Positions 1 through 24,855 of a DNA stretch of 24,855 nucleotides are shown here, piece by piece (the first letter of the stretch is position 1; each line of letters starts with the position of its first letter). The stretch covers positions 532,747-557,601 of the forward strand of contig MU646367.1 of assembly GCA_026770585.1 (NCBI GenBank), in the 5' to 3' direction. A model generated the notes under the pieces. It saw nothing but the letters and a program-made list of their open reading frames with translations. It searched no databases and was not told where the DNA came from. The translations under genes and the position numbers were made by a program. Source of the stretch: Baffinella frigidus. Taxonomy: Eukaryota > Cryptophyceae > Cryptomonadales > Baffinellaceae.

Positions 1-107
1 ACACCCTACACCCTACACCCTACACCCTACACCCCACACCCCACACCCCACACCCCACACCCTACACCCTACACCCTACACCCTACACCCTACAGCCTAC
101 AGCCTAA
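1..107 (+). repeat. Telomere-like (CCCTACA)n block
   Basis: Tandem 7-mers ACACCCT with a CCCCACA stretch in the middle, in the intron upstream of the first visible exon. The C-rich strand is the sense strand, as in all later blocks. Confidence 0.5.
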
Positions 108-338
108 CTGTTCCTCCAGCACCCTTCCATGAGGGGAGCATGCAACCAACCCACACATCCTTCTCACATGCAGAGCATCACCCGCACGTTGCTGCCCGCA
201 GCCGCACTCACAAGGGCGAGCACAAGAGAGCGAGAGAGAGAGAGAGAGAGCGAGAGATGGTGCGTGTGTCTGAGAAAGAGAGAGAGAGAGAGAGAGAGGG
301 GGGCGGGGCTGACGTGCGGCAACCACACCCGGGAGCAG
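108..338 (+). other. Intron remainder with (GA)n microsatellites
   Basis: Two purine runs, at about 228-258 and 274-300, of GAGAGA type lie in what appears to be intron, ahead of the acceptor GGGAGCAG (ending 338). No exon could be supported here with confidence. Confidence 0.5.
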
Positions 339-3300
339 ACGCAGAAGTACGGGGCGCGGCCGCTCCCGACCTCGCTCTCCCGCGCAACCCTCGAAGCGCT
401 GCGAACAGTCGCCGGCGCGCGCGCCCACGCGGGGATCGACGCCCTCTACCTCCTCGACGAGAACGCCGTGCGCGCCAGCGGGCGGCGTCTCGCGCCCGAC
501 GCGTTCCACGGGGAGGACGGGCCAAGGTACATGCTCCGCGCCGCGCGGGAGGTGGAAGACTTCTGGAAGGTGCACGCGGAGGTGCAGGGGGCGCTGCGCG
601 GGGCCGCTGAGAAGATGGCGCCTGGGGTAAACCCTACACCCGAAACCCGAAACCCAAACCCTAAACCCTAAACCCTAAACTCTAAACCCAACACCATAAA
701 CCCCAAACCCCACACCCCACATCCCAAACCCCACACCCCACACCCCACACCCCACATCCCACACCCCACACCCCACACCCCACACCCCACACCCCACACC
801 CCACACCCCACACCCTAACCCAGGGCGTGCACCCCATGAAGACGGTGGGTGACGTGTCCGCGGCGTCGGAGGTGCACAAGCTGTTCTGTTCCGTGGCGGC
901 CGAGGAGATGCTGCGCGGGATGGTGTGGCGCTCCCCTGAGGAGCAGTATCGCCAGGTGCCTCTCTCTCTGCCTCTCTGCCTCCCTACCTCCCTCGCCCCC
1001 CCACACACACACTTGCCATAGGTGCCTCTCTCTGCCTCTATCTGCCTCCCTCCTCCCCCCCGCTTGCCAACCCTGCATCCGTAACAGGTGCCTCTCGCTC
1101 TGCCTCCCTGCCTCCCTCGCCCCCTCACACACACACTTGCCAACCGCAGGTGCCTCTCTCTCTCGGCCCCTCTGCCTCCCTCGCCCCCCCCACCCCACCC
1201 CCCGCGTGCCAACCCTGCGTGCAGAACAGGCGCCGCTCTCTCTGCCTCCCGCAGCCTCCCCCCCGGCCCTACCGGTGATTGCCCCCGTGGCGAAGCGGGT
1301 CAGGGAGACACTCCGTCAGCGGAAGGTCCAGAGTTCGAACCTGGCCGTGGGGAGATCGCGTGACGCGCTTTTCCACAACAGGTGCTAGTGTACTCGCGGA
1401 GATTCACGCTCGGGCCCGGCGGGTGGGCGCGCGCGCCCCAGGGGGCAAGGTTCACGGACGTCGACAAGGAAGGCTGGCTGGATGCGGACGCGCAGCGCCT
1501 GCTCGCCCAGGGCAACACACTCATGCCCTTGCACGTGCGCACGCGGAGCTACTCGGTGGGGTGGGGCCCCGGGATCGAGCCGGCGAAGCTCCCGGAGCAC
1601 GCGACGTACCTCCGCTCGTTCGTGGATGACGTGACCACGGACCTCCTCGCGAGCATCGACGCGGCGGTGGCGGCCGCGGGGGGCGCGCCCGACAGCGTCG
1701 TCGCGGAGGCCGAGGCGCACTGGCGGGGCGCGCTCCGCCGCGCCGACACCCTCTGCGAGGCCGCCTCGGTCACCAAGGTCCTCGCTGCCGCGCGTGCGTA
1801 CCTCGCGCCTGCCGCGGACGCCCCCCCGAGCACCACCGGGCAGGCGTTGGTGATCTACGGCGCGTCGGGCGCCGGCAAGTCGTGCATCATGGCGGCGCTT
1901 GCTGCGGAGCCGCACGCGAGTGACGATGACAAAAGCGGAGATGACAAAAGCGGTCGGTCAACTCAAGTTGGCGGTGGCGCCTCTGTGGACCCGGTTGGGG
2001 AGGGGGGCGGGTGCGTGCTCGTGCGCTTCCTCGGCACCACGCCACAGTCCTCATCAGCACCCTCTCTCATCCGCTCGCTTCTCCTACAGCTGGCGCGGAT
2101 CTACGAACGAGAGGACGAGGCGATCCCGCACGACTTCCAGAGCCTCACAGCGCTCTTCAAGCTCGCGCTCCTCACGTGGCCCTCCGCCACGCGTCCGCTC
2201 GTGCTCCTCCTCGACGGGGTAGACCAGCTGGATGATGCGGAGCGGGGAAGGGAGCTGGGATGGCTCCCGCTCACCTCCCTCCCGCCCGCCGTGCGCGTCG
2301 TGGTCTCATCGCGGTCCTCCTCCTCTGGCGACACGCCAACCGACGCGCCCGAAGGGGCGACGTGCCTCGCGTGCCTCACCGCGGCGCTGGGCGTCGCGCC
2401 CGGGGCATCGTCCGGCATGGTGGAGGTGGAGGCGGTCTCGGAGCCGGAGGTGCTCCTGACGCAGGTGCTGGCGCGGCAGGGGCGCGCCGTGAGTGCCCTG
2501 CAGCTGGCCGAGGTGCACCGCGCGCTTTCCGACGCCCGCACGGTCTAAACCCTAGGCCCTGAACCCTAAACCCTAAACCCTAAACCCTGAACCCTAAACC
2601 CTAACACCTAAACCCTACACCTGAAACCCTTCACCCTGAACACTGAACACTAAATCCTAAACCTGACGCCTGAAACCTGAAACCCTTTACCCTAAACCCC
2701 AAACCCTAAACCCTGAACATGAACCAGGGCGGCGAGGCGGGGGCGGGAGGGGCGCTGTGGGTGCGGCTCGCAGCAGAAGCAGTCGCGACGTGGCGCTCCA
2801 CGGACGGCGTGCCCGCCAAGCTCCCCACCTCGGTGTCCGGGTTGGTCGGGCTGCTGTGGAAGCGGTGGGCGGGGATCCACAGGAAAGAGCTGGTGGGGGC
2901 GACGGTGGCGTACGTGACGCTCTCGCGCGGGGTGGGCGAGGGCGAGCTCTCCCACCTCCTCGCGCTCCAGGACAGCGTGCTCGCGGACGCGTACGAGTGG
3001 TGGGTGCCGCCCGCGCGCACCCTCCCCTCCCTGGTCCTCACCCGCCTCCTCCTCGACCTCGAACCCCTCCTCGTGCGCCGCGGGGATCCTTCGGGGGTGG
3101 AGCTGGTGGCGTGGAGCCACCGCGCTGTGGAGGAGGCGTTTGAGGAGCTGTGCTTCAGGGAGGACCCGGGGGTGAGGATACAGCGGCACCGCGAGCTGGC
3201 CGTGTTCTTTGGGGGGGACTGGGCTGGGCGTGCCAAGGACTACTCACCGTGGCTCGCGTCCAACATCCAGCGTCCCCAGTTCTTCCCTGGTGAGATCCTC

Positions 3301-22980: not shown

Positions 22981-23004
22981 ATCTAAAGGCTCGTGTGGCT
23001 AGCA

Positions 23005-24855
23005 ATGATGGACGGGTCGCCGAGTCCAGACAGATTGCACGAGATGGGAGACAGCGGCGCGCTAAGAGGGTGGAGCCCTGTGATGCATCCACTTCCCCCA
23101 TCCGATGCGGAGCTCCCTCCTCCTCTCGGCGTTGGTGAAAAAAAAGGGTTTGTTCGTGTGCCGGCAAAGCGTGTGCCGTCGACAACGCGCGTGCCGAAAA
23201 AGGCGGTGGTTGAGAGCGTCTCCGGGTACCGCACGGAGAGCCAGCGCACGGCTCCTCGGAGCACTGTGATCGAAGATGTGCTGGCTGTGCGCTCCCAGCC
23301 GACGCAGCAACGCCAGCTCTCTCCAGGTAGAAAGGCAGACACAACGTCGAAAAGTGTGGTGGAGAAGCTCGTCGCCAAGTACTTCGAACCGCTGTTGGTG
23401 CCAGTTGTGCCAGTTGTGGTGCCAGGGAAGGAGAAGCCTGTGGTGGTCCCCTCGGGAGTGACTGCCAAGCTTGCCGGCGCCGTGGAGGAACCCAAGTTCA
23501 TTCCTTCGGAGAAAGGGCCTGTGCTGCTGGTGAACAGCACGCGACAGAAGGACACGCAGCTGCCCCACGCCAAGACGGTGCGGACGACGCAGCGGCTGCG
23601 CGACAAAGAGCGGGCGGACGTGATGGCGCGGCTGATGCGCGTGGACGTGCCTTCGCGCCACGCGGGCAAGCCGGGGTCCGTCAAGAAGCGCCCAGCCACC
23701 GCAGGCTTTACCCTCAACCCTCAACCCCCAACCCTTCACCTTGAACCCTCAACCCTAATTCATAAATCATAAACCATAAACCCTACACCCCAAACCAGGC
23801 AAGTCACGTCCCCCTCCGAGAGCCTGGCCCGGGTTCTTCGGCGACAAGGTAAACCCTAAACCCTGAACCCGAAACCCTAAACCCTAAACCCTAAACCCTA
23901 AACCCTAAACCCTAAACCCTAAACCCTAAACCCTAAACCATAAAACATAAAACATAAAACATAAAACATAAAGCATAAAACATAAACTTAAAACTATTAA
24001 CCATACACTATAAACCCTAAACCCTAAACCCTAAACTCCAAACCCCAAACCCCGCACCCCAAACCCCAAACCCTGAACCCCAAACCCCAGACCCCAAACC
24101 CCAAAACCCAAAACAGGTTGAGGCGGCCGAGAACACAGTGGAGGACGAGCACGACACGACCGACTACCCGTCGCTCCAGTTCGAGGTGTCAGTCACCATG
24201 AGTGCCGCCGCGTCTGCGTCGAGTGGCGCCTGGTCCCCTTCTGCGGAGGCCGGAGCTCCGTGGGAGGATGCAGAGGGGGAGGCGGGGTGGAGGGACCAGG
24301 CCGCAGCGCCCCCAGCAAGGGATGTTTCATTCTCTCGAATTCAGCCGAGAGGCGGGCTGCCGCAGGCTCGATCTCCGACAGCGTCTCCTCCGGGCAAGAC
24401 AGGCGCTCTCGCAGGGCGCGCTCCCGGAGCAAGCCAGGACATCACCGCTTTATCGCCTTCCGCGCACAGCCCCCTGACCGTGACCGTCGCCCGGCGCACT
24501 TCTGGAGGCTCTGGAGGCGTCGCAGCCTCTCTGGAGCTCTCGGTCGAGTCCTCGGCGCTCGGCTCGCCAGTCGACGTGCCCTCCTCCCCAACCAGCGCCT
24601 TTTCGCTAACTGGGGGGCGCAACCTGCTACCGCACGGAGCGAGGACGTGGGAGCGCCAGACACCTTCTTCCGGCGGCAAGACGGCGCAGGGCTCGCACGT
24701 GCACGCGCAGGACGTGGGGGGTGCGCAGCGGCAGCACGAGGTGGTGCGCGAGGCGCGAGGCGAGGTGGCGCCGCGCCCGCACGCGGCTGTGGACCACCGC
24801 TTATGGGAGCAGGATGCGGGCGGCGTGCGGCAGCTTGCCGAGCTTGGCGGGGGGG
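23005..24855 (+). CDS. Unrecognised low-complexity protein, 3'-partial
   Basis: Exons: 23005-23704, 23799-23848, 24117 to beyond the window end. The frame is open from ATG 23005 (a second ATG follows at 23008). The first intron must use a GC donor (CAG/GCTTTA at 23705) to keep phase; the second uses GTAAAC. The product is about 497 residues so far, rich in Ser, Pro, Ala, Val and charged residues. Recognisable stretches: KGFVRVPAKRVPSTTR, KSVVEKLVAKYFEPL, a Val-Pro run (VPVVPVVVPGKEKP), RLRDKERADVMARLMR, then FFGDK, VEAAENTVEDEHD and a long disordered-looking tail. No domain recognised; it could be a scaffold or cytoskeleton-associated protein, but that is a guess. The last exon has no stop in the 739 nt visible, strong support for coding at this length. 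A perfect 23-bp palindrome lies 25 bp before the ATG. Confidence 0.5.
23705..23798 (+). repeat. GC-AG intron with CCCTCAA telomere-variant units
   Basis: Begins GCTTTACC after CAG and ends AAACCAG; filled with CCCTCAA/CCATAAA-like units. Phase on both sides requires this GC donor. Confidence 0.5.
23849..24116 (+). repeat. Telomere-like CCCTAAA block (intron)
   Basis: Exact CCCTAAA run, then ACATAAA units (about 23940-23990), then CCCCAAA variants up to the acceptor AAACAG. Donor AAG/GTAAAC. Confidence 0.5.

Follow-up and report, generated by a model that had tools for sequence, protein, structure and literature searches.

TTTAGGG is a telomere unit. Short arrays of telomeric repeats also lie inside chromosomes, where these interstitial telomeric sequences have reportedly been inserted at double-strand breaks in primates, rodents, and the horse. 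Here we describe a window from the cryptophyte Baffinella frigidus (the whole stretch of DNA that was analysed: C65:532747-557601, 24,855 bases, within a 999381-base scaffold of a 382 Mb assembly) in which arrays of the complementary heptamer, CCCTAAA, lie in predicted introns. The tandem repeat sits inside the scaffold, away from chromosome ends, so these arrays can be classed as interstitial repeats of telomere type.

Several described systems are similar to this one. (Excerpts of the papers cited here were available, and statements about them refer to those excerpts.) In humans, 31% of interstitial telomeric sequences are intronic, which fits random insertion, and none lie in exons (PMC7215372). 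The same paper flagged a possible effect of intronic telomeric repeats on splicing as worth testing. Like break-inserted sequences, some of which have target duplications or microhomology, the arrays in B. frigidus are short, internal, and of telomere type. But unlike the mammalian sequences, they make up whole introns, and their polarity follows the gene strand in the genes that we checked. Introners are introns that occur in repeated copies, and some of them have target duplications or inverted repeats (PMC9860276, PMC7789003); TTTAGGG has been named as the telomere unit of other organisms (PMC7789003). As with introners, many introns of one genome seem to be built from one repeated sequence here, and short direct repeats are found at some boundaries. 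However, by inspection there is no element with ends, and the only common sequence is the telomere-type heptamer.

The telo boxes of plants occur singly; they are enriched in 5' untranslated regions (UTRs) and first introns and are tied to promoters, and a telomerase-based origin has been proposed for them (PMC3022908). The shared feature is a telomere motif, AAACCCTA, in or near genes. But instead of single promoter or 5' UTR motifs, we see arrays that each have about 7-50 units and occupy inferred introns along the whole length of genes. In Daphnia, newly gained introns have been explained by repair of staggered breaks, and some of them have a direct repeat at their two ends (PMC4202315); in contrast to our case, the excerpt of that paper mentions neither telomere arrays nor a strand bias of repeats. 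An intron-rich alga without introner-like sequences has also been described (PMC12730881). In a literature search that left most subscription journals outside, PMC7215372 was the only paper found on telomeric repeats in introns, and the available parts of the literature found on these systems do not describe introns that consist of telomere arrays and always have the same strand as sense.

In the window, exact counts on the plus and minus strands were 100:1 for CCCTAAA, 43:0 for CCCTACA, and 36:1 for CCCCAAA. A preliminary description had claimed at least 14 heptamer blocks with the C-rich strand in the mRNA direction. Our block finder counted 21, all of them C-rich on the plus strand, and 20 lie within inferred plus-strand genes, so both claims stand within the window. 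Every heptamer array reported by Tandem Repeats Finder (TRF) is also C-rich on the plus strand. These arrays have a period of 7, include the local variants ACACCCT, ACCCCAC, and AAACCCC, contain about 7-50 copies each, and lie in inferred introns. Three stretches that are intergenic by inferred gene ends (5816-6734, 13810-16211, and 21520-23006) contain neither a block nor a TRF heptamer array. The skew of the window toward a C-rich plus strand is not chance. But all four window genes are on the plus strand, so the window by itself does not show whether the arrays follow the strand of the gene or that of the chromosome. We therefore looked for a minus-strand gene elsewhere.

A dynein family search found a match to PF12774 on the minus strand (C65:242689-244142). 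L051, the 8 kb region that surrounds this match, has 12 blocks, all C-rich on the minus strand; eight are in the part of the gene that we joined and four are upstream. Ten joined exons give a stop-free dynein heavy chain of 1663 residues, whose best match is the DNAH2 chain 9fqr_D0 (1859.7 bits). In the part of the alignment listed, the two sequences align without gaps at five of the nine junctions (residues 164, 291, 639, 678, and 860). Program-found blocks are present in four of those five introns, and the fifth has a degenerate GGAACC-type array, recognised by eye. Eight of the nine joined introns are array-like; the other (7713-7879 in reversed coordinates) has a different tandem repeat. 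Array orientation switches with gene strand inside this one scaffold, across about 284 kb. Elsewhere, on C23, PF12774 matches on the plus strand (five short, two with a stop) span an array that is C-rich on the plus strand, as judged from coordinates only (C23:1297687-1297775:-). The C-rich strand is the sense strand in the predicted genes that we checked, which cover both strands of one scaffold and a dynein-like plus-strand gene elsewhere. The introns and the dynein also mark the assembly as eukaryotic.

We then examined the window genes (Table 1). The four genes of the preliminary description were inferred from open frames, all on the plus strand. When we compared ten open frames from the window to Pfam, only gene A matched (AAA_16 and NPHP3_N), and the other nine had no match. 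The eight exons of gene A join to give 876 residues without a stop. Among 7995 candidates scored, gene A has at least two relatives. One of them, P0006 (known as one predicted protein only), is 37% identical and aligns through the array introns at 627-823, 2543-2727, and 3290-3460. This alignment is ungapped at the first and third of these junctions, with a three-residue gap six residues past the first; single-residue gaps lie four or five residues to each side of the second. Nine window array introns have frame-keeping GT..AG junctions, usually one of several stop-free options, and two more (7538-8007, and 23705-23798 with its GC donor) were joined by hand. As judged from sequence, the array introns are almost certainly real spliceosomal introns.

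Two other tandem structures are present in these genes. The gene A intron at about 956-1381 contains several tandem units of about 60 bases that start with AGGTGCCTCTCTCTGCCTC or a near-variant, as though intron ends had been tandemly duplicated. At 7881-8061, TRF found a 95-bp tandem duplication that covers an array end, the acceptor, and the exon start, so that the exon start occurs twice.

The array introns of the window and the dynein gene, 19 in all, are similar in anatomy. They are 75-470 bases long, have AG acceptors (mainly CAG/G, where the slash marks the splice junction), and join their exons in frame. There are 16 GT donors and three GC donors. The GC donors are at 23705-23798 in the window and at 3854-3997 and 6337-6524 in L051 (reversed coordinates), and the next exon begins with GC each time. 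It had been suggested that the repeat can overlap the donor, and indeed the array gives part of the donor in six of the 19. Five of these have GTAAAC or GTAAAT (at 627, 18675, 19484, and 23849, plus one GTAAAC in the dynein gene) and one has GTCTAAAC (at 2543). In 12 of the 19, including all three with GC donors, the next exon opens with the same dinucleotide as the donor (compared by hand). This repetition is only suggestive, as though AGGT or AGGC had been duplicated on insertion; the longest exact direct repeat at the boundaries is 7 bases.

The two strands of these introns differ greatly in what they would offer to the spliceosome. In the sense direction, the 19 introns (4203 bases) contain 52 AG, 34 GT, and no G-quadruplex motifs. 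If the same introns are inverted, they contain 397 AG and 598 GT, and 18 of the 19 have a G-quadruplex motif. A perfect array, once inverted, has an acceptor-like TTTAG/G and a GT in each repeat. On the C-rich strand, pyrimidines are plentiful and CTAAAC, a sequence similar to the branch-point consensus, recurs.

By sequence and homology, the arrays lie between exons that can be joined without loss of frame, the genes concerned are on either strand of the genome, and the predicted RNA contains the C-rich strand. On balance, we favor the view that these are spliceosomal introns made mostly of interstitial telomere-type repeats, and that selection keeps mainly the C-rich-sense copies. Arrays would originate or land in genes by telomerase-type break repair, by slippage growth from a short seed, or by both, and selection would retain mainly those whose C-rich strand is transcribed. 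The C-rich RNA, which is pyrimidine-rich, nearly lacks AG and GT, contains the branch-point-like CTAAAC, and has no G-quadruplex motif, would be spliced cleanly. In an inverted copy, each perfect repeat would offer an acceptor-like TTTAG/G and a GT, and the G-rich strand might form quadruplexes. The neighboring exon probably gives the acceptor's AG/G and often the donor's G or GT as well, and an array that landed at AG/G(T/C) would be spliceable immediately, in a single orientation.

Of the three causes that had been put forward for the bias, selection against the G-rich orientation is the best supported, given what the 19 introns would contain if inverted, and we lean toward selection at the level of splicing as the cause. 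We see no direct evidence for insertion coupled to transcription or splicing, and the bias can be explained without it. Spread by duplication of an intron element was seen only as local tandem duplications. A bolder proposal is that telomerase-type repair creates introns genome-wide, by adding repeats to exon breaks at AG/G in the C-rich-sense orientation only, which would make the telomere sequence an intron-making element. This is tentative, and we consider it rather unlikely.

Is the bias genome-wide? Exact repeat 28-mers (30621 overlapping matches in all) are nearly even across strands, with 15790 forward and 14831 reverse. This is expected when genes are on both strands, and the totals do not bear on the question of orientation. 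Instead, we used a motif, GACNWCRNS, that was picked after a large systematic scan of 10.8 kb of inferred training exons. Its sense:antisense counts are 35:7 in inferred exons, 14:17 in noncoding DNA, and 0:0 in arrays. Across the genome, 60-90 bases downstream of C-rich arrays, the motif has 701 sense matches (456 forward and 245 reverse) and 451 antisense matches (295 and 156), a ratio of 1.5 to 1.6 whichever strand is taken. (The forward counts are higher apparently because single arrays are often listed several times forward, but mostly once reverse.) Among the matches listed for C1-C36, there are 71 distinct sense sites and 40 antisense sites (binomial p 0.004), and six of the 71 sense sites are within 200 bases of an antisense site. 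Upstream of arrays, the sense count is 655 genome-wide, with 55 distinct sites on C1-C36 among the matches listed. Of 20 ten-kb stretches of genome that were sampled, 17 were entirely N, too many for the sample to be unbiased. We consider it very probable that arrays are biased toward C-rich-sense relative to the gene strand across the genome.

A second test, with a donor pattern, gave the opposite result: CAGGT within 20 bases upstream of arrays was found 527 times for the C-rich orientation and 1260 times for the G-rich one. We dropped this test, as degenerate G-rich units such as CAGGTTTAGGG hold CAGGT-like letters, and it gives no support. The genome-wide motif counts lean toward C-rich-sense downstream of arrays, where sense and antisense are paired.

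The claim that the C-rich strand is always the sense strand was confirmed in the genes that we checked, on both strands, but not outside them. Among blocks outside the training loci, the orientation matched the strand of the nearest coding segment (within 1.5 kb) for 8 of 10, 8 of 11, 13 of 16, and 20 of 28 blocks at thresholds of 25, 20, 18, and 15. In L034, where no gene was recognised near the blocks, nine minus and two plus blocks are interleaved. We also compared ten open frames from other loci to Pfam, and the only match was RRM in L041. Judging from predicted gene structures, arrays obey the rule strictly in verified introns and less closely elsewhere, a pattern predicted if a filter acts on RNA.

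Besides the reversed donor-pattern test, several observations weigh against selection for C-rich-sense introns. First, the third donor base matches in only four of the 12 introns whose boundaries repeat the donor dinucleotide, and the AG/GT consensus by itself accounts for part of this repetition. Second, in L041 the coding segment closest to one plus-strand block is 757 bases from it and on the minus strand. Third, GACNWCRNS was selected post hoc, from a large scan on the training exons, and its sense and antisense counts are paired on the downstream side only. Fourth, a ratio of 1.55 is modest; arrays outside genes may add a large background.

Other explanations would not require selection. 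The arrays could have grown by slippage from pyrimidine-rich or branch-point-like seeds in existing introns and so inherited their orientation from the polarity of the intron. Homogeneous variants (ACCCTAC with 31.9 copies, ACCCCAC with 16.6, and AAACCCC with 8.9 at 100%) point to local tandem growth, three arrays (5540-5694, 10697-10856, and 11431-11516) take up only the 3' part of inferred introns that are longer, and other introns have different tandem repeats (about 956-1381, and 8211-8308). However, the repeat is specifically a telomere heptamer of the plant type (the 30621 genome-wide matches given above), and several arrays span the intron from donor to acceptor. We consider this explanation unlikely. 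As to whether arrays make introns or grow inside them, the homogeneity of the variants and the partial filling favor growth for some array introns, and end-to-end filling and the specific telomere-type unit favor insertion for others.

Alternatively, insertion itself could be strand-biased, if the template strand of a transcribed gene receives G-rich repeats from a telomerase or another enzyme of repair. A transcription-linked telomerase model was proposed for single telomere motifs in plants (PMC3022908, in the part available), and the bias is complete in the genes that we checked. But no strand-biased mechanism emerges here, and given the cost of inversion, selection alone could suffice. We think that strand-biased insertion without selection is quite unlikely. 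Still less probable is a family of mobile introners that carries the repeat along with its own splice sites and hence has a single orientation. For introners, the element, a target duplication, or the neighboring exon can indeed provide the splice sites (PMC9860276), and some of our boundaries have short direct repeats; but by inspection, the 19 array introns and the TRF units have only the heptamer in common, and the introns vary in length (75-470) and donor (GT or GC). Finally, it is most unlikely that orientation is set by chromosome arm or replication direction and matches genes only via co-oriented neighbors: the final 13 of 26 array clusters on C1 are all plus among the matches listed, but C1 has nine runs, not significantly fewer than the 12.1 expected (p 0.115, 37 positions among the matches listed), orientation changes with the gene strand on a single scaffold, and the motif test on 36 contigs leans sense.

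Table 1. Telomere-type arrays and gene A in the window (slash, splice junction).
Feature	Coordinates	Strand	Evidence
C-rich period-7 array, upstream of the first gene A exon identified (intronic or 5' position)	1..106	+	block finder, TRF
Gene A, AAA_16/NPHP3_N protein, 876 aa, 8 inferred exons joined; 5' end provisional	336..5815	+	Pfam, joining, homologue
Gene A exons	336-626, 824-955, 1382-2542, 2728-3289, 3461-3647, 4255-4348, 4859-4945, 5699-5815	+	
Array intron, gene A, GTAAACCC...CCCAG	627..823	+	frame-keeping junction, homologue
Array intron, gene A, GTCTAAACCC...ACCAG	2543..2727	+	frame-keeping junction, homologue
Array intron, gene A, GTGAGA...ACCAG; GGTGAGA at either end	3290..3460	+	frame-keeping junction, homologue
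Longer inferred intron, gene A; array is the 3' part (5540-5694)	4946..5698	+	TRF, exon joining
Array intron, gene B, joined by hand; contains 95-bp tandem duplication	7538..8007	+	
Array within longer inferred intron, gene B	10697..10856	+	TRF
Degenerate array close to inferred acceptor 11535	11431..11516	+	TRF
Array intron, GTCAACCC...ACCAG	11794..12014	+	frame-keeping junction
Array intron, CAG/GTCCTG...GCAG/GTG	12066..12220	+	frame-keeping junction
Short array intron, AAACCCC units; acceptor uncertain	12876..12950	+	junction candidates, TRF
Array up to inferred acceptor ACACAG at 13305	13058..13305	+	TRF
Array intron, gene C, GTAAACCC...ACCAG/GT	18675..18896	+	frame-keeping junction
Array intron, gene C, GTAAATCC...CTCAG; acceptor less certain	19484..19731	+	
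Array intron, gene D, GC donor, joined by hand; CAGGC at either end	23705..23798	+	
Array intron, gene D, AAG/GTAAACCC...ACAG/GT	23849..24116	+	frame-keeping junction

Outside the genes, the window has an inverted repeat around TTAATCATAAAATCTGAGATCACATTTGTGAA (15620-15720), and the intergenic regions at 5830-6480 and 22200-22550 have a common element with TTTAGGTCCTTTAGG-like and CAGAGGCTCGTGAAGAGGGGATA sequences. Scans of the window for tRNAs and for Rfam families (at the gathering threshold) gave zero matches. In the sequences read here, we looked for three fragments of the dinoflagellate spliced leader; one 9-base fragment occurs once, and the longer ones were not found. A 31-mer from the arrays also occurs in viral contigs, in six records that we judged to be unrelated by their flanks. 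The IMG/VR contigs L052, L053, L055, L056, and L057 have near-identical flanks and a CCCTAAA array of variable length that ends just 5' of an ATG.

The origin of introns is an old question, and many lineages have too few recent gains for study. A natural experiment is offered by a genome in which many introns consist of a single simple repeat whose polarity is known. Testing orientation can separate selection on splicing from biased insertion, and the decay of the repeats gives relative ages. The array introns also bear on whether intronic telomere repeats affect splicing, which the available part of PMC7215372 leaves open for mammals.

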